39,463 bases of DNA from Burkholderiales bacterium. GTDB taxonomy: Bacteria; Pseudomonadota; Gammaproteobacteria; Burkholderiales; Burkholderiaceae_C. The notes under the pieces were generated by a model, which worked only from the letters and a program-made list of their open reading frames with translations, had not been told where the DNA came from and did no database searches. A program made the translations under genes and the position numbers. Each line of letters starts with the position of its first letter. Position 1 is the first letter of the stretch. The DNA lies in NCBI GenBank assembly GCA_030603635.1, contig JAUVXK010000013.1, positions 1 to 39,463 of the forward strand. The letters run 5' to 3'. This document shows positions 12,193 through 17,856 of this stretch, piece by piece.

Positions 12193-12912
12193 ATGAACAT
12201 GCCGCATCTGCTCATGATCGAGGACGACACGCGCCTGGCCACCATGGTGGGTGAGTACCTGCAGCAGTCGGGTTACACCTTCGAGCAGGCGCCCGAGGGG
12301 GGCGCAGGCGTGCAGCGCCTGCAGGATCGCCTGCCCGATCTGGTCATCCTGGACCTGATGCTGCCCGACATCGATGGCCTGGAGGTGTGCCGGCGGCTGC
12401 GTGCCTTGCCAGGGGCCGCATGCCGTGTGCCGGTCATCATGCTCACCGCCAAGGGCGATCCGATGGACCGGGTGATCGGCCTGGAGATGGGCGCGGACGA
12501 CTACCTGCCCAAGCCGTTCGAGCCGCGTGAGCTGCTGGCCCGCATTCGTGCCGTGCTGCGCCGTCGCGCCGAACCGGGACCTGGCCCGGACGCGGGCGCA
12601 CGTCCCCCGCTGCGCTTCGGTTCGCTCGAAATCGACCGCGATGCGAGGACCGTGACCGTGGCGGGTCAACCGTGCGAGATCACTTCCCACCAGTTCGACC
12701 TGCTGGTGGTGCTGGCCGAGCGCGCCGGTCGGGTGCTCACGCGGGACCAGATCATGGAAGCCGTGCGTGGCCGCGAGCTGGAGGCGTTCGACCGCTCGAT
12801 CGACGTGCACATGGGACGCATTCGCCAGGCGATCGAGGCCGACCCCAAAAACCCACGCCGCATCCTGACGGTGCGTGGGGTGGGCTATGTGTTTGCCAAA
12901 CAGCAGGATTGA
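12193..12912 (+). CDS. OmpR/PhoB-family response regulator
   Basis: A 239-residue DNA-binding response regulator. The receiver domain (residues about 4-120) has the acidic pair 'EDD', the phosphoacceptor Asp54 in 'VILDLMLPD', Thr in 'MLTAKGD' and Lys in 'YLPKPF'. The C-terminal winged helix (about 140-235) shows the family pattern ending 'ILTVRGVGYVFAK'. It is followed after 12 bases by its cognate histidine kinase, so the two form an operon. The layout resembles RstA/CpxR-type regulators, but the stimulus is not readable. ATGs at 12193 and 12199 are both possible; neither has a clear Shine-Dalgarno sequence. Confidence 0.95.
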   Translation: MNMPHLLMIEDDTRLATMVGEYLQQSGYTFEQAPEGGAGVQRLQDRLPDLVILDLMLPDIDGLEVCRRLRALPGAACRVPVIMLTAKGDPMDRVIGLEMGADDYLPKPFEPRELLARIRAVLRRRAEPGPGPDAGARPPLRFGSLEIDRDARTVTVAGQPCEITSHQFDLLVVLAERAGRVLTRDQIMEAVRGRELEAFDRSIDVHMGRIRQAIEADPKNPRRILTVRGVGYVFAKQQD

Positions 12913-12924
12913 AGGGCACTGCGC

Positions 12925-14160
12925 ATGCGCCTGCACCAGCACCTGTATCTGCGCATCTGGCTCGCGCTCACGGCGGTGATCGTGGTCATGACCCTGCTGC
13001 TGGGGTGGCTCTGGCGAGCCCAGTGGGAGCACGAGCGTGCCCAGCGTCCGGGCGGCGTGGTGGTGCTGCGCGATGCCGCCGGACAGGAAGTGGGGCGTGC
13101 CCAGGCCCGCCGCCAGTGGGTGCCTGGGCAGGGAGTGGAATTCGAGGTCCCGCTGGCCGATGGCCAGACACTGACCATCCAGTTGCCGCGCCCGAGTCGC
13201 CCGCCCCACGCCCGCAGCACGGATCCGTTTCGGTTCATCCAGTCGTTCTGGGGGTTCACCACCCTGCTCTTGCTGATTGCCTTGGCGGTGGCCTTGGGCG
13301 CCTACCCGGTGGTGCGTCGTCTCACGCAGCGCCTGGAAGTCCTGCAGCGGGGGGTGGAGCGTTGGGGTGATGGCCGCCTCGACACCCGCCTGCCCGTGCA
13401 GGGGCAGGACGAGGTCGCCTTTCTGGCCGAGCGCTTCAATGCCGCGGCCGATCGTGTGCAGGCCCTGCTGGCGTCGCACAAGGCGCTGCTGGCCAACGCC
13501 TCGCACGAACTGCGTTCGCCACTGGCCCGTATCCGCATGGGGCTGGAGCTCTTGGGCAACCCTTCCGCTGACACGGTTGTCCGTGAGCGGCAACGGTCGG
13601 AAATTTCCCGCAACATCGCAGAACTGGACGAACTGATCGACGAAATCCTGCTGGCCAGCCGACTGGATTTGACGGATCCTAACGATCCCGGAGCGCTGGG
13701 GGCGGCGGAAGATGTCGATCTGCTCGGACTGGCCGCCGAAGAGTGCGCCCGCGTCGGGGCGACCCTGGAGGCGGCAGGAGAGACGCCTCAGTTGCTGTTG
13801 CGCGGCTATCCACGCCTGTTGCGCCGCCTCTTGCGCAACCTGCTGGAGAACGCCCGCCGCCACGGCGGGGTGCAGGCACCGGATGCGGTCACCTGCACCA
13901 TCGAGTCCTTGCAGGATGTGGCGGGTACCCCCCTGTGGCGCATCACCGTGGCCGACCGGGGCCCGGGCGTGCCCGATGCCTACAAGGAGCGGGTGTTCGA
14001 GCCCTTTTTCCGGCTCCCTGGCCAGAGCGAGCGCGAAGGCGGTGTAGGGCTTGGCTTGGCCCTCGTGCGGGCCATCGCCCGTCGCCACCGGGGTGAAGTC
14101 CGTTGCACCGACCGACCGGACGGTGGTGCCTGCTTCGTTGTCAATTTGATGTCAGTTTGA
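12925..14160 (+). CDS. Membrane sensor histidine kinase (HAMP, HisKA, HATPase)
   Basis: A 411-residue kinase paired with the regulator just upstream. It has a first membrane helix at about 11-30, a short periplasmic sensor of about 75 residues, a second helix at about 110-130, a HAMP linker, and the HisKA motif 'ASHELRSPLARIR' with phosphoacceptor His194. The ATPase domain follows, with the N box 'NLLENARRHGG', G1 'ADRGPGVPD' and G2 'GGVGLGLALV'. The small periplasmic domain is arginine- and proline-rich near the second helix ('PRPSRPPHARS'), and its ligand is unknown. The overall size resembles the CpxA/RstB group of envelope sensors. It is followed by a long 3' region with stable hairpins and an intrinsic terminator at 14337-14361. 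Confidence 0.95.
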   Translation: MRLHQHLYLRIWLALTAVIVVMTLLLGWLWRAQWEHERAQRPGGVVVLRDAAGQEVGRAQARRQWVPGQGVEFEVPLADGQTLTIQLPRPSRPPHARSTDPFRFIQSFWGFTTLLLLIALAVALGAYPVVRRLTQRLEVLQRGVERWGDGRLDTRLPVQGQDEVAFLAERFNAAADRVQALLASHKALLANASHELRSPLARIRMGLELLGNPSADTVVRERQRSEISRNIAELDELIDEILLASRLDLTDPNDPGALGAAEDVDLLGLAAEECARVGATLEAAGETPQLLLRGYPRLLRRLLRNLLENARRHGGVQAPDAVTCTIESLQDVAGTPLWRITVADRGPGVPDAYKERVFEPFFRLPGQSEREGGVGLGLALVRAIARRHRGEVRCTDRPDGGACFVVNLMSV

Positions 14161-14336
14161 CGAACATCCCCCAAACAGGGGATGTCCAGAACCGTGCTGC
14201 GGTTGCACAATATCCACCAACGCTGTCAGCACAACACGATAACAGCCCGTACGAGGGCATTCAGGGAGTGGCTGGCATCAAAGAGGAAGCCGGCCACTTA
14301 TGGAAAGGTTCCCAACGACGTCCTGATGGACTTCAC

Positions 14337-14361
14337 GCCGCCCTTCGGGGCGGCTTTTTTT
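14337..14361 (+). terminator. Intrinsic terminator downstream of the two-component operon
   Basis: A 7-bp perfect GC stem, GCCGCCC/GGGCGGC, closed by a TTCG tetraloop (14344-14347), is followed directly by seven T residues (14355-14361). This is a textbook Rho-independent terminator for plus-strand transcripts from the response regulator/kinase operon or from a separate RNA encoded in its 3' region. Confidence 0.9.
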
Positions 14362-14380
14362 CGTCCATTGCCCAATGACC

Positions 14381-14411
14381 AAAAAAAAGCCCGGTCGTGA
14401 TGACCGGGCCT
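14381..14411 (-). terminator. Intrinsic terminator of the minus-strand small RNA candidate
   Basis: Read on the minus strand, GCCCGGTC and GACCGGGC form an 8-bp stem (one arm 14402-14409, the other 14389-14396) with a 5-base loop, followed by eight T residues (14388-14381). No protein gene on the minus strand lies upstream of it within reach, which is why a small RNA is proposed. Confidence 0.88.
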
Positions 14412-14501
14412 GAACCACCCGTTGAGGGCAGAGGAGACAACTGACAACAGGGGGAGGCCCCCCGGGCGATGCAAGACCGGTACACGGCAATTGCATACAA
14501 T
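14382..14501 (-). ncRNA. Candidate small regulatory RNA of about 120 nt
   Basis: A near-consensus sigma-70 promoter on the minus strand (-35 TTGCAT at 14536-14531, 17-base spacer, -10 TATACT at 14513-14508) points to a start at A14501. An intrinsic terminator with eight T residues ends the unit near 14382, giving about 120 nt. The only frame opened by an ATG (14496) has no stop before the terminator, so it is not a short gene. The middle of the RNA carries pyrimidine-rich single-strand candidates, GCCTCCCCCTG and TCTCCTCTGCC, complementary to Shine-Dalgarno sequences, a common seed type in trans-acting small RNAs. It is divergent from the OsmC-family gene. The existence of the RNA and its mode of action are inference; the promoter and terminator are seen directly. 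Confidence 0.62.
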
Positions 14502-14507
14502 GGTTCT

Positions 14508-14536
14508 AGTATATGCCGGTTTTTGTTGCGATGCAA
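14508..14536 (-). promoter_or_regulatory. Sigma-70 promoter of the small RNA candidate
   Basis: On the minus strand TTGCAT (14536-14531) and TATACT (14513-14508) are separated by exactly 17 bases, with a purine (A14501) seven bases past the -10 box. Each hexamer is close to consensus (TTGACA and TATAAT). Confidence 0.7.
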
Positions 14537-14538
14537 CA
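14524..14538. promoter_or_regulatory. Perfect 15-bp palindrome over the -35 box (candidate operator)
   Basis: TGTTGC-GAT-GCAACA is a perfect inverted repeat that covers the whole -35 box of the minus-strand promoter. It also lies about 40 bases upstream of the OsmC-family start. A repressor bound here would block the small RNA promoter and could also affect the OsmC gene. The cognate protein is unknown. Confidence 0.5.
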
Positions 14539-14579
14539 TTTTCCGCTGTCCGGCTGTTGTTTTTATGGAGAAATGCCTC

Positions 14580-15029
14580 GTGGAATGCACTGTGACCTGG
14601 ACCGGCGGCGCCGGCACCCGATCCGCAATGGGCTTTGTTGCAGAAACCGGCAGTGGCCATGTCCTGACCATGGATGGCGCACCCGATGCGGCCAAACCGG
14701 AGAACGGTGGCGCGAACCTGGCGCCACGCCCGATGGAAACCGTGCTGGCGGGCACCGGAGGGTGCACCGCTTACGATGTGGTGCTGATCCTCAAGCGTGG
14801 GCGGCACGACGTGCGGGGCTGCAGCGTCCAGCTCACCAGTGAACGCGCCGACACCGACCCGAAGGTTTTCACCCGGATCCACATGCACTTCACGATCACG
14901 GGCAAGGGCATTCCGGCCACGGCGGTGGAGCGGGCCATCGCCATGAGCCACGACAAGTACTGCTCGGCCAGCATCATGCTTGGCAAGACGGCGGACATCA
15001 CCACCAGTTTCGAGTTGGTCGAGGCCTGA
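14580..15029 (+). CDS. OsmC family protein, YhfA-like
   Basis: A 149-residue OsmC/Ohr-fold protein. OsmC-type proteins are usually thiol-dependent peroxidases; the YhfA subgroup has no firmly established role. Family marks are 'PRPMETVLAGTGGCTAYDVV' with the first Cys, 'KRGRHDVRGC' and the C-terminal 'SHDKYCSASIMLGKTA' with a second Cys. I chose the GTG at 14580 because GGAG (14567-14570) lies 9 bases upstream and because the resulting N-terminus lines up with the start of E. coli YhfA as I recall it. An in-frame ATG at 14565 has no ribosome-binding site, and an ATG at 14469 would run through the small RNA promoter. The gene stands alone, divergent from the small RNA candidate and convergent with the NarL-type regulator. 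Confidence 0.87.
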   Translation: MECTVTWTGGAGTRSAMGFVAETGSGHVLTMDGAPDAAKPENGGANLAPRPMETVLAGTGGCTAYDVVLILKRGRHDVRGCSVQLTSERADTDPKVFTRIHMHFTITGKGIPATAVERAIAMSHDKYCSASIMLGKTADITTSFELVEA

Positions 15030-15037
15030 TACCCGTC

Positions 15038-15670
15038 TCAGATGAGCCCGAGGCTGCGGGCCTTGAGTGCGGCCTCGGCCCGGCTACCGATGTTGAGCTT
15101 GCGGTAGATGGCCTTGACGTGGTCACCCACGGTGAAGCGAGAAATCTCCAGCGCCTGCGCGATGTCGACGATGCGCACCCCCTTGGCCAGCAACCCCAAC
15201 ACTTCACGCTCCCGGGCGCTCAGTGACAAATTTTCGGCCGCATCTGGCCCGGTATGCTGAAAGTGACGCAGCAGGCGCCGGGCAATGGCCGGTGACAGGG
15301 GTGGGTGACCGTCTGCGATGCCCTGGAGTTGGCGGATCAACAAATCGGGCGGCTGGTCCTTGAGTACATAGCCCTGGGCACCGGCTTGCAGGGCGCTGAA
15401 CAGGTGGTCGTCATCGCCGTAAATGGTGGACACGACCACGGTGCAGTGAGGCTGGACCTGGGTGAGCAGGGCGATCAGGTCCTGCCCGTTGCCATCGCCC
15501 AGGCACAGATCGACCAGCGCCAGATCGAAACGGTGTCGGTGCACCAGCGCCCGTCCATCGGCCAGGTTGGTGGCCAGGGTCTGCTGGGCGTGTGGAAAGG
15601 CGCTCGCCACCGAGGGCCCCAGCAGTGCCAGGACTTCGGGCATGTCGTCCACCAGCAGGATCTGGTTCAC
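15038..15670 (-). CDS. NarL/FixJ-family response regulator
   Basis: A 210-residue response regulator. The receiver domain (about 1-120) has 'VDD', phosphoacceptor Asp54 in 'ALVDLCLGDG' and Lys in 'YVLKDQPP'. A LuxR-type helix-turn-helix occupies about 146-208 ('LSAREREVLGLLAKG', 'TVGDHVKAIYRKLNI'). Its start overlaps the stop of the histidine kinase gene by four bases (ATGA at 15667-15670), so the two are translationally coupled and form a cognate pair. The target genes are not evident; the nearest downstream gene on this strand is far away. Confidence 0.94.
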   Translation of the reverse strand: MNQILLVDDMPEVLALLGPSVASAFPHAQQTLATNLADGRALVHRHRFDLALVDLCLGDGNGQDLIALLTQVQPHCTVVVSTIYGDDDHLFSALQAGAQGYVLKDQPPDLLIRQLQGIADGHPPLSPAIARRLLRHFQHTGPDAAENLSLSAREREVLGLLAKGVRIVDIAQALEISRFTVGDHVKAIYRKLNIGSRAEAALKARSLGLI

Positions 15671-17856
15671 TGTGCAGCCTTTGCGCCCGGATCGGTCGGC
15701 AGGTGGAGGACCACAGTATGCCCCGCCAGGGTGTCTGGCCCGGGGCGTTGAAGCATCAGGGTACCGCCCTGTTCAGCGAGGCGCTGTTCCAGCCCCCTGA
15801 GGCCTCGGCCCAGGGTCCAGGGACCTGTCCCGGACGGTCCGTCGTCGTGAACGTGGAGTTCGATGCTCCCGCCCCCGGCCAGCCGCAAGCGTATCTGGAT
15901 CGACCGAGGCGCTGCGTGTTTCAGGGCGTTGGTGAGGCACTCACGTAAGGCCCGTTCAAGCAGCGAACGCACGCGTGGCTCCAGCGTCAACGTCTCAAGC
16001 GCAGCATCGGTTTCCCATTCGAGTGCGACATGGGCGGCTTCGCAGCGCTGGTGGGCTTCGGCGCGCCAGTCGGCCATCGCGTCGCCCATCGGCATGGGTT
16101 GGCCGTCGATCGCCGACAGCGCGGTGCGCAGGTCGGTCATGGCGACACGCGCCAACTCCGCCTGCTGGGGCGTGGTGGCGCTGTGGATGAGCATGAGCAG
16201 TCGCGCGCCGACATCGTCGTGGATGTCGCGAGCAATGCGTCGACGTTCCTCCTGTGCGCCTCGTTCGTGGGCCTCTCGTCCAGCCTCGGCCTGGTCCATG
16301 AGCTTGCACAGGGCGCTCACGAAGCGGACATCCAGTGGAGAAAACAGCCGGCGGCCTCGGTCGGGGAAACGCAGCAGCCGGCCCCCCAGGCTGCCGCACG
16401 GCGCCAGGGTGAGCGCCAAGCCTTCCTCCGAGAGGTCGTGTGCGGTGTGTCCCGGTGTGGTGAGCGGTTTGAGTTCCAGTGGGTCGAAGAGTCGCTGCAG
16501 CAGCGTGTCCCATTGCTGTTCCCGCTTGCGCCGGTCCGGGCTGAAGGCGATCTGGACCAGATCGGGCAGGAGTTCGTGTGGGCGCAGCCGGGGCTGGTGC
16601 ATCAACCGGGCCCAGAGCCATTGCCGGGCCGGGAAATACAAGGCGCCACACACCCACAGCGACACGCCAAGCGCCGGCCCGGCGGACCAGTCCAGCGCCA
16701 GGATGAGCACGGCGTCGAGCCCCAGCACGGCGAGAGCGCCTCCGATCCACAGCAGGAGGCGGTAGGCCCAGAGGTCCAACTCGAACAGCCGGTAGCGCCG
16801 CAGGCCCAGCGCCACACCGGCGTAGATGATGAGGAAGAAGCCGAAGGCGTAGCCTTGGGGGATTGGGGGCAGCCAACCCAGGCTGGCGGTGACGATGTGC
16901 GTGACGATGAACAGACCGCCGCCGGTCATCAGCGACAGCGTGAGCCAGCGCAGGGCTGCCCGGTCATGGGGGCGGTCCCGGCTCTGCCGCCACTGGACGA
17001 CCGCGAGCCCCATGGCGAGCAGCAGTTCGGTGAAGATGGGGAAGCGAAAGCCCCAGTCCGGGTTGTCGGTGAGCCGGAACGCCGACACCAGCCACCACAG
17101 CCCGAAACCCAGCAGCAGGCCGATCAGCACCTGTGGCGGCACCAGCCGTTTCGGGTAGGCGAAAAAAATCCCCGCAAACGCCGCTCCGTACACCAGCGAA
17201 CTGAGGTGGTTCAGTCCGCTGAGTGCCGCGAACCAGTGGCCGGGCAAGGCCAGCTCACGGGTGCTGTAGACGGCGGCCGACATCGCGAACAGCGGGAACA
17301 TGAGTCCGGTGATGCCGAACATGCGGGCCCCCCAGTCTGCCGAACGCAACACCCAGACCCAGGTGGCGATCAGGCACCCCAGGATAGCGACGCCCAATTG
17401 AAACCAGAACATGGCCGGGAGCGCCGTGAGGGGACGGGAGCCGGGCCGGATGTCGGAAAACCGTGGAGAGGGGTCATCGTCCGTTCGCCAGTGAAGCCGA
17501 ACCTCAGGGGCAGACACCCGTTCGTGCAGGGATTGCTGGCGGTCGAAGAAGCGGTCGATGGCCGTGTACGTGTCCAGGATGTCAGGCTCTTCCATGACAT
17601 CCTGGGCCTCGAGCGGCAAATAGGCTCCGCCGTCGGTTCGGGATAGGGCCAGTAGCAGGGCCCCCATTGGCACGTCGGTGCCCGGGCCCCGACTGTCCGC
17701 GACGCGGACCACACCGCTTGGTTCGGCCACCAGCCGCAGGCCGAGCCAAGGGGTTTGCAGGGCCAGGCCGATGGCGGCAATCGCCGCGACCACGCAGTAC
17801 ACCATCGCCACCACCAGCCAGCGGGTGGGGGTTCTGAGGCCCGATGACGGGACCAT
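15667..17856 (-). CDS. Large membrane histidine kinase of the NarX/LytS-like HisKA_3 type
   Basis: A 729-residue sensor kinase. A first membrane helix (about 13-33) precedes a roughly 110-residue extracytoplasmic segment that begins like a PDZ-type fold ('VVRVADSRGPGTDVPMG'). A block of about seven further hydrophobic helices follows (roughly 150-400). The cytoplasmic part has the HisKA_3 motif 'ARDIHDDVGARLL' (His near residue 544) and an HATPase domain with 'ECLTNALKHA' and 'GRGLRGLEQRLAEQGG'. The G1 box reads 'HDDGPSG', slightly unlike the usual DNGxG. It is coupled to the NarL-type regulator by a four-base overlap. A multi-helix sensor with an outside domain suggests it detects a membrane or periplasmic signal; the ligand is unknown. 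Confidence 0.9.
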   Translation of the reverse strand: MVPSSGLRTPTRWLVVAMVYCVVAAIAAIGLALQTPWLGLRLVAEPSGVVRVADSRGPGTDVPMGALLLALSRTDGGAYLPLEAQDVMEEPDILDTYTAIDRFFDRQQSLHERVSAPEVRLHWRTDDDPSPRFSDIRPGSRPLTALPAMFWFQLGVAILGCLIATWVWVLRSADWGARMFGITGLMFPLFAMSAAVYSTRELALPGHWFAALSGLNHLSSLVYGAAFAGIFFAYPKRLVPPQVLIGLLLGFGLWWLVSAFRLTDNPDWGFRFPIFTELLLAMGLAVVQWRQSRDRPHDRAALRWLTLSLMTGGGLFIVTHIVTASLGWLPPIPQGYAFGFFLIIYAGVALGLRRYRLFELDLWAYRLLLWIGGALAVLGLDAVLILALDWSAGPALGVSLWVCGALYFPARQWLWARLMHQPRLRPHELLPDLVQIAFSPDRRKREQQWDTLLQRLFDPLELKPLTTPGHTAHDLSEEGLALTLAPCGSLGGRLLRFPDRGRRLFSPLDVRFVSALCKLMDQAEAGREAHERGAQEERRRIARDIHDDVGARLLMLIHSATTPQQAELARVAMTDLRTALSAIDGQPMPMGDAMADWRAEAHQRCEAAHVALEWETDAALETLTLEPRVRSLLERALRECLTNALKHAAPRSIQIRLRLAGGGSIELHVHDDGPSGTGPWTLGRGLRGLEQRLAEQGGTLMLQRPGPDTLAGHTVVLHLPTDPGAKAAQ

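Follow-up and report, generated by a model that had tools for sequence, protein, structure and literature searches.

The promoter of a double-hairpin small RNA lies within a predicted PhaR site, suggesting that full carbon stores may switch the RNA on and damp nutrient uptake

The window analyzed here, the whole stretch of 39,463 nt of contig JAUVXK010000013.1 from a Burkholderiales bacterium, carries a short unit on its minus strand (14380-14538), flanked on both sides by plus-strand genes. A two-component system is encoded upstream on the plus strand (12193-14160), and between the stop codon of its sensor kinase and a plus-strand terminator there are about 190 nt without an obvious gene (14161-14354), which could represent a long 3'UTR or another RNA. 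This terminator (14337-14354, plus strand), detected by terminator search, is convergent to the unit and not part of it, and probably belongs to the upstream two-component operon. On the other side an OsmC-family gene is transcribed divergently (14580-15029, plus strand; PF02566, E 2.9e-16), with a GTG start deduced from its homologues; its score against NF008009 is 137.8 bits, the cut-off being 138. This gene possibly shares an operator with the RNA described below.

The promoter elements of the unit can be read directly from the minus strand, where TTGCAT (-35; 14531-14536) and TATACT (-10; 14508-14513) are separated by exactly 17 bp. The unit extends for about 120 nt from promoter to terminator and is closed by an intrinsic terminator, hairpin 2 with its T tract (14381-14411, minus strand), which was recovered by both terminator search and fold and consists of a 10-pair stem (14411-14387) and a T run, with eight T residues in all. 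The original prediction had correctly described this spacing and this terminator. It had also called the promoter near-consensus, which is overstated, as the -35 box retains only the TTG of TTGACA, and a sigma-70 scan listed no promoter in 13000-16000. Support for the promoter comes from its conservation: among 93 homologous operator-bearing loci, 89 have a -10 element at 16-18 bp, and a -10 with A2 and T6 is seen in 91 of the 93 when aligned. The further statement that no open reading frame ends inside the unit holds for likely genes, yet a mechanical plus-strand frame of 72 aa stops at 14400; minus-strand reading frames run through the RNA unit.

Transcription is predicted to begin near 14501 and to produce a long transcript, composed of a self-folding 5' leader (14444-14501, minus strand) and a conserved double-hairpin core (14380-14443, minus strand), the probable mature RNA, which was delineated by covariance model, Rfam, fold and covariation. 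The predicted fold of the last 64 nt, i.e., the core, contains two hairpins and an unpaired 5' arm, CAGUUGUCUCCU, with a folding energy of -26.2 kcal/mol (z -3.6), and none of 200 shuffles was equally stable. The seed GUUGUCUCCUC (14431-14441, minus strand), an anti-Shine-Dalgarno sequence recognized from the alignment and the predicted fold, is unpaired in this fold except for its last base, and GUCUCCU is invariant across the 25 aligned sequences. It is followed by hairpin 1 (CUGCCC-UCAAC-GGGUGG; 14415-14431, minus strand), supported by covariation and fold. Two CU-rich stretches had been highlighted at the outset, of which TCTCCTCTGCC indeed falls within the conserved core, while GCCTCCCCCTG is in the leader and is paired in the predicted fold. 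Many BLAST matches span the core only, and not the leader. By analogy with S17 of Bordetella pertussis and with ncS27 of Burkholderia cenocepacia (called bdhR1 in later work), it is probably the 3' part of about 64 nt, and not the whole of about 120 nt, that constitutes the mature RNA; the leader may, as in S17, be removed by RNase E.

The relationship of the core to known RNA families was examined at two levels of stringency. An Rfam search of the whole window at gathering level gave no match, and a permissive search gave RF02278 (Betaproteobacteria toxic sRNA) at 14381-14439 over the full length of the model, with 41.5 bits (E 5.3e-7) against a gathering score of 50 bits. Since the formal threshold is missed, the window RNA is regarded as a divergent homologue of the RF02278, double-hairpin and S17 RNAs and not as a filed member, yet judged by sequence the homology is clear, and the features of RF02278, namely two hairpins, an unpaired CU-rich 5' seed and a terminator, are all present. 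The locus also gave sub-threshold matches to TarB, SorX, sX11, suhB and others, which we attribute to the resemblance that terminators share in general; the match to anti-hemB was likewise sub-threshold (29.1 bits vs 49.5). Three weaker RF02278 matches in the own genome were disbelieved, as the model also responds, at E ≤ 1, in 11 of the 14 control genomes; one of the three, at C33:4823, resembles by eye the 3' end of a tRNA gene.

A covariance model, R1, built from 25 relatives with the window locus included, detected the RNA in 188 of 200 genomes of the window organism's family (E ≤ 0.01), a conservation well above what chance would give; for the order the figure is 97 of 200 genomes (E ≤ 0.001), genome sampling being unequal. 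The window RNA, itself a training member, scores 78.3 bits (E 3.3e-14). In the alignment used for training, 92.4% of the cells agree with the nine consensus pairs vs 82.4% in shuffles, and the covariation score is 0.385 vs 0.215, a value reached by none of 500 shuffles, where the consensus structure tested was derived from the same alignment. Six of the nine pairs change on both sides, including all four consensus pairs of hairpin 1, and covariation is seen in both hairpins. Loss of promoter and core in related genomes had been named as an outcome that would count against the original prediction; both proved to be conserved (188/200 genomes and 89/93 loci), and a regulatory sRNA whose CU-rich core, homologous to RF02278/S17, would pair with ribosome-binding sites continues to be the best reading of the unit. 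One genome (G206:C1:1646156-1646603; L206, L354) contains two copies of the double-hairpin RNA, both on one strand and separated by about 300 nt, and genomes of its family contain up to six copies.

The -35 box lies inside a palindrome, TGTTGCATCGCAACA (14524-14538, read on the minus strand), and forms part of its left half. This sequence fits the consensus TG[N]TGC[N]3GCAA of PhbF, the PhaR protein of Herbaspirillum seropedicae, a consensus backed by DNase I footprint; PhbF is reported to repress from such promoters and to bind PHB granules (PMC3206438). On the basis of consensus and matrix the palindrome is thus a predicted PhaR/PhbF operator. Of the 105 family loci in which OsmC is divergent, 93 show at least 11 of 12 matches to the pattern TGYTGCNNNGCARCA within 220 nt upstream; dinucleotide shuffles reach this level in 0.95% of cases, and an interval farther away does so in 2 of the 105 loci. 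These counts are partly circular, as the motif was first spotted in these RNA loci. As the pattern had been read off the OsmC-class loci, a separate matrix was built from phasin promoters, using 31 sites in front of phasin genes in 16 other genomes (25 of 27 phasin loci outside the family); these were hand-picked among 37 matches to TGCNNNGCA, six with poor flanks being left out by hand, and the threshold was set at 99% of shuffles. With this matrix the predicted operator scores 23.3, and the next best site in the 39-kb window 10.7. Upstream sites exceed the threshold in 96 of 105 family loci and fall below it in nine, exceed it in 65 of 66 Bordetella/Achromobacter-type S17 loci, and do so in 2/6 family loci classed as 'other' and in 0/5 phasin-3'UTR loci. 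The 116 family loci comprise 30 from the R1 search, 80 fetched and six picked from BLAST matches, further R1 matches having been left out. An operator-like site is also seen downstream of the RNA core, at 19-75 nt, in 11 of the 105 OsmC-class loci (L080, L094, L127, L146, L149, L150, L153, L164, L166, L169 and L177).

A close, experimentally described counterpart of the window RNA is S17 of B. pertussis, whose promoter has a -35 element TTGCAT and a 17-bp spacer (PMC11722255). S17 is reported to be shortened by RNase E from a 190-nt to a 67-nt form and to depend on Hfq; in its absence 92 genes rise, of which 70 show complementarity in or close to the ribosome-binding site, compensatory mutations demonstrated the pairing for one target gene in Bordetella, and the target list is rich in transporters (PMC11722255). 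The two RNAs share TTGCAT, the 17-bp spacing, a -10 element, an intrinsic terminator and a related seed. They differ in their neighbours, which for S17 are a glycosyltransferase gene and coq7, and in the leader, of about 123 nt in S17 (PMC11722255) and about 58 nt in the window RNA. The invariant 27-nt 5' region of the short form of S17 is not retained in the window, which reads GTTGTCTCCTCTGCCCTC where Bordetella-type loci read GTTGTCTCCTCCACCCTCC, the comparison being with these loci and not with the published 27 letters. The operator of the S17-type relatives is mostly TCTTGCNNNGCACAA, and not the full palindrome of the window. Among Alcaligenaceae-type S17 loci, TGCNNNGCA occurs upstream of the RNA in 67 of 67 and the form TTGCNNNGCA[CA]AA in 60 of 67; this set, which includes Bordetella hinzii, petrii, trematum and ansorpii, Achromobacter, Pusillimonas and others, consisted of 70 loci, three being dropped for short upstream DNA, and 66 were used for the matrix count. 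At the B. hinzii locus the operator holds TTGCAT, followed after 17 bp by TACTAT, just as described for the S17 promoter, and a site of this kind is also present in the phasin promoters of B. hinzii, B. petrii and A. xylosoxidans. B. pertussis itself is absent from the S17-type loci recovered. The S17 promoter needs no BvgA in vitro, and the authors of that work postulate an unidentified repressor (PMC11722255), for which PhaR, judging from these sites, is a candidate. PHB accumulation by B. pertussis has been reported under some conditions, although the study that relays this saw none itself (PMC4684311).

The co-occurrence of operator and phaR was then compared across genomes. A phaR match is present in 195 of 200 family genomes, and the order was thus used for comparison with genomes lacking it. 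Among R1-positive genomes of the order 28 of 97 are without a phaR match, so that the RNA can persist without PhaR. The operator was found in 41 of 62 loci of other phaR-bearing genomes vs 1 of 17 loci from genomes without a match (Fisher 1.0e-5, kinship ignored). The multi-copy family f8 has sites above threshold in 5/15 loci and below it in 10/15; without f8, which was split off from the phaR-positive set only after its scores had been seen (41/62 being the merged figure), the operator occurs in 36 of 47 phaR-bearing loci vs 1 of 17 (Fisher 3.6e-7, kinship ignored). This comparison comprised 79 loci, 47 phaR-positive, 15 of f8 and 17 phaR-negative (from 17 of the 28 such genomes); four phaR-adjacent matches, L297 and L354 were among those left out. 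The phaR-negative loci have a signature of their own, ATTAGA near the -10 element, present in 16 of 17 vs 2 of 47 phaR-positive loci without f8, and often within the palindrome ATTAGA-N4-TCTAAT or close to it (L196, L197 and L287-L302 except L292). As ATTAGA is common to 16 of the 17, these loci may amount to hardly more than a single lineage and one additional case, and the alternation of ATTAGA and operator possibly represents a swap of regulators at the same RNA.

The genome from which the window derives encodes phaR (C41:37413-37730), next to which only a weak site is found (matrix 8.8). Two operator sites precede a phasin gene (C157), another lies 23 bp upstream of a PHB depolymerase gene (TIGR01849, E 7e-174), and a second phasin gene (G000 C78:1164-1893; L052, L377, L381) has a PhaR-type operator at its promoter. 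Loose palindromes number 46 in this genome; 22 of them, among which is that of the window, were inspected, and several lie inside open reading frames and are not regarded as operators. Two further genes have strong PhaR-type sites. One site is at the start of the gene for a ParA-like ATPase (L061, G000 C159:2424; 18.2), a protein that, if controlled by PhaR, could have to do with the partitioning of granules; the other is 77 bp ahead of the gene for a LysR-type regulator (L050, G000 C63:14845; 21.0). Candidate targets of the seed were sought with the pattern GAGGAGACAN{0,8}ATG, which occurs at only seven own-genome sites, a control pattern giving none. Gene starts of the GAGGAGACAN type presumably include those of a TctC-type receptor, pyruvate dehydrogenase E1, an acyl-CoA ligase and a branched-chain amino-acid permease. 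The fit of this seven-site list to the transporter-rich targets of S17 is weak evidence.

A second tie to PHB is provided by the phasin genes themselves. The second R1 match in the own genome (29.7 bits, E 0.0023) lies 25 nt after the stop codon of the C78 phasin gene, the 3'UTR of which contains a sibling hairpin with the GUCUCCU seed of the window RNA. Across the family, 39 of 50 phasin loci (24/30 and 15/20 in the two sets) have a GUCUCCU-bearing sibling double hairpin on the strand of the gene, 0-165 nt behind its stop codon. R1 matches numbered 25/30 and 16/20, of which L393 and L422 were excluded for lack of the GUCUCCU seed; 50 of the 60 family genomes searched were included, each with its best-scoring phasin only, one of the 39 loci (L404, G034) is an R1 training sequence, and at L420 just 24 nt are available after the stop codon, too short to show a sibling. 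A PhaR-type site, judged by eye, lies within 300 nt upstream of the assumed phasin start in 49 of 50 family loci. Outside the family, weak R1 matches (E ≤ 1) with TCTCCTC are found behind 3 of 27 phasin genes (L325, L328, L329), and three further hairpins are located behind Phasin_2 genes next to phaR. The phaR-adjacent R1 matches were considered as a third class, which was dropped, three of the four being behind Phasin_2 genes, one of them barely so (25.0 vs 24.9 bits). As the window RNA and the sibling share their seed, they could act on overlapping targets.

Relatives of RF02278 have been described in B. cenocepacia, namely ncS03, ncS05, ncS27 and ncS62 (PMC4603805, PMC5688073), and four related RNAs in H. 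seropedicae (PMC7011215). Such double-hairpin RNAs have been reported as 'toxic' since 2012 (reference cited in PMC4603805), inhibiting growth upon cloning in E. coli (PMC4603805, PMC7011215), and they resemble the window RNA in their two hairpins, unpaired CU-rich anti-RBS seed and short size. ncS03, ncS05 and ncS27 are up in glucose medium, starvation and biofilm, overexpression of ncS27 slows growth, its longer form is processed, and the control of these RNAs in B. cenocepacia was called unknown (PMC5688073). This published expression agrees with the reading proposed below. A term look-up in the main texts of PMC5688073 and PMC4603805 found no mention of PhaR or PHB. The PhbF regulon of H. 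seropedicae shares with the window the operator consensus and its overlap with promoters, yet the targets given for it are promoters of PHB-metabolism genes, with no sRNA among them (PMC3206438). Control of an sRNA by PhaR has nevertheless been reported before, from another class: PhaR/AniA of Sinorhizobium meliloti is a repressor of the sRNA MmgR, the promoter of which carries a site of the same type, and MmgR is thought to act on phasin expression (PMC12542648). MmgR and the window RNA are alike in being short sRNAs with a PhaR site at the promoter (predicted for the window) and a link to PHB, although the window RNA scores 22.8 bits against the MmgR family RF00519, with a gathering score of 41, which indicates a functional parallel and not a shown homology. 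Deletion of the Burkholderia sRNA ncS35 lowers the phasin-like transcript BCAL2206 (PMC5760752), perhaps a further tie between sRNAs and PHB, unrelated in sequence as far as known.

The homology, the structure, the terminator, the conserved operator and the phasin sibling, all read from the sequence, suggest a model for which we infer transcription, RNase E trimming, PhaR binding, the targets and the physiological purpose. Transcription of the RNA would run leftwards, starting near 14501 and ending with the terminator at about 14381, and the long transcript would be trimmed to its conserved 3' part of about 64 nt. In the absence of PHB, PhaR would occupy the -35 box and block RNA polymerase; once PHB granules form they would titrate PhaR, and the RNA would be made. 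Its unpaired seed GUUGUCUCCUC may then bind to ribosome-binding sites rich in purines (GAGGAGACA-like) and prevent translation, chiefly that of genes for uptake and catabolism. With the same type of operator before phasin genes, PHB accumulation would release two anti-RBS RNAs, which would damp carbon uptake while the stores fill. We are reasonably confident that the window RNA is a stand-alone, trans-acting homologue of RF02278/S17, repressed by PhaR, released by PHB and serving as an anti-RBS brake on uptake.

Several other explanations were weighed against this reading. The RNA may be an ordinary sRNA of the RF02278/S17 type, its palindrome serving another regulator of the TGC-N3-GCA kind or none, and the tie to PHB being coincidental. 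The copies of f8, mostly without a strong operator (5/15 above threshold), would fit such a view, as would the levels of S17, which follow the Bvg state in B. pertussis (PMC11722255), and the association with phaR may rest on few independent losses. Nevertheless, a matrix derived from phasin promoters only still recovers the operator at the RNA, genomes without a phaR match have almost no such operator at their loci (1/17), and the phasin sibling is a second link to PHB; we consider this explanation unlikely, though it is the strongest of the competitors. More improbable still, to a degree that leaves it little weight, is that the operator belongs to the OsmC gene and the RNA is a mere neighbour with a constitutive promoter of its own. 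A divergent OsmC gene accompanies 105 of the 116 family loci examined, which speaks for it, yet the operator contains the -35 box of the RNA itself, with a -10 element at 16-18 bp in 89/93 loci. In S17-type loci, moreover, no divergent OsmC gene lies within 700 nt in any of the 63 with at least 900 nt of upstream DNA, and where such a gene is found it is at least 1 kb away, while the operator stays at the RNA; the operator thus goes with the RNA and not with OsmC. Finally, the plus-strand terminator facing that of the RNA might suggest that there is no functional RNA, and that two operons are simply separated by terminators facing each other and by a promoter arisen by chance. Core, hairpins and promoter are conserved, however, and homologues have been seen experimentally in Burkholderia, Herbaspirillum and Bordetella (PMC4603805, PMC7011215, PMC11722255), which renders this last explanation nearly negligible.

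Control by PhaR, released by PHB, is thus the preferred reading for the window RNA, and it may be extended, more tentatively and with chances that we place slightly below even, to a carbon-storage circuit throughout the Burkholderiales. PHB would titrate PhaR and thereby release two anti-Shine-Dalgarno RNAs sharing a seed, the stand-alone window RNA/S17 and the phasin 3'UTR sibling, which would brake nutrient uptake; PhaR would be the missing repressor of S17, and the circuit would have arisen in parallel with PhaR-MmgR of the alphaproteobacteria. In searches of the open-licence PubMed Central literature no report was found of PhaR control of the RF02278/S17 family, nor of the phasin 3'UTR sibling; the RNA family itself was already known, and what appears new here, from the sequence evidence, is its PhaR-type control. 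The predicted PhaR operator provides a named candidate controller for the double-hairpin RNAs of B. cenocepacia and for S17, and the phasin 3'UTR sibling connects the seed to PHB a second time. If true, bacteria that store bioplastic would use the granule itself as a signal for post-transcriptional control of uptake, which would matter for metabolic engineering of PHB and for carbon control in the large order Burkholderiales.
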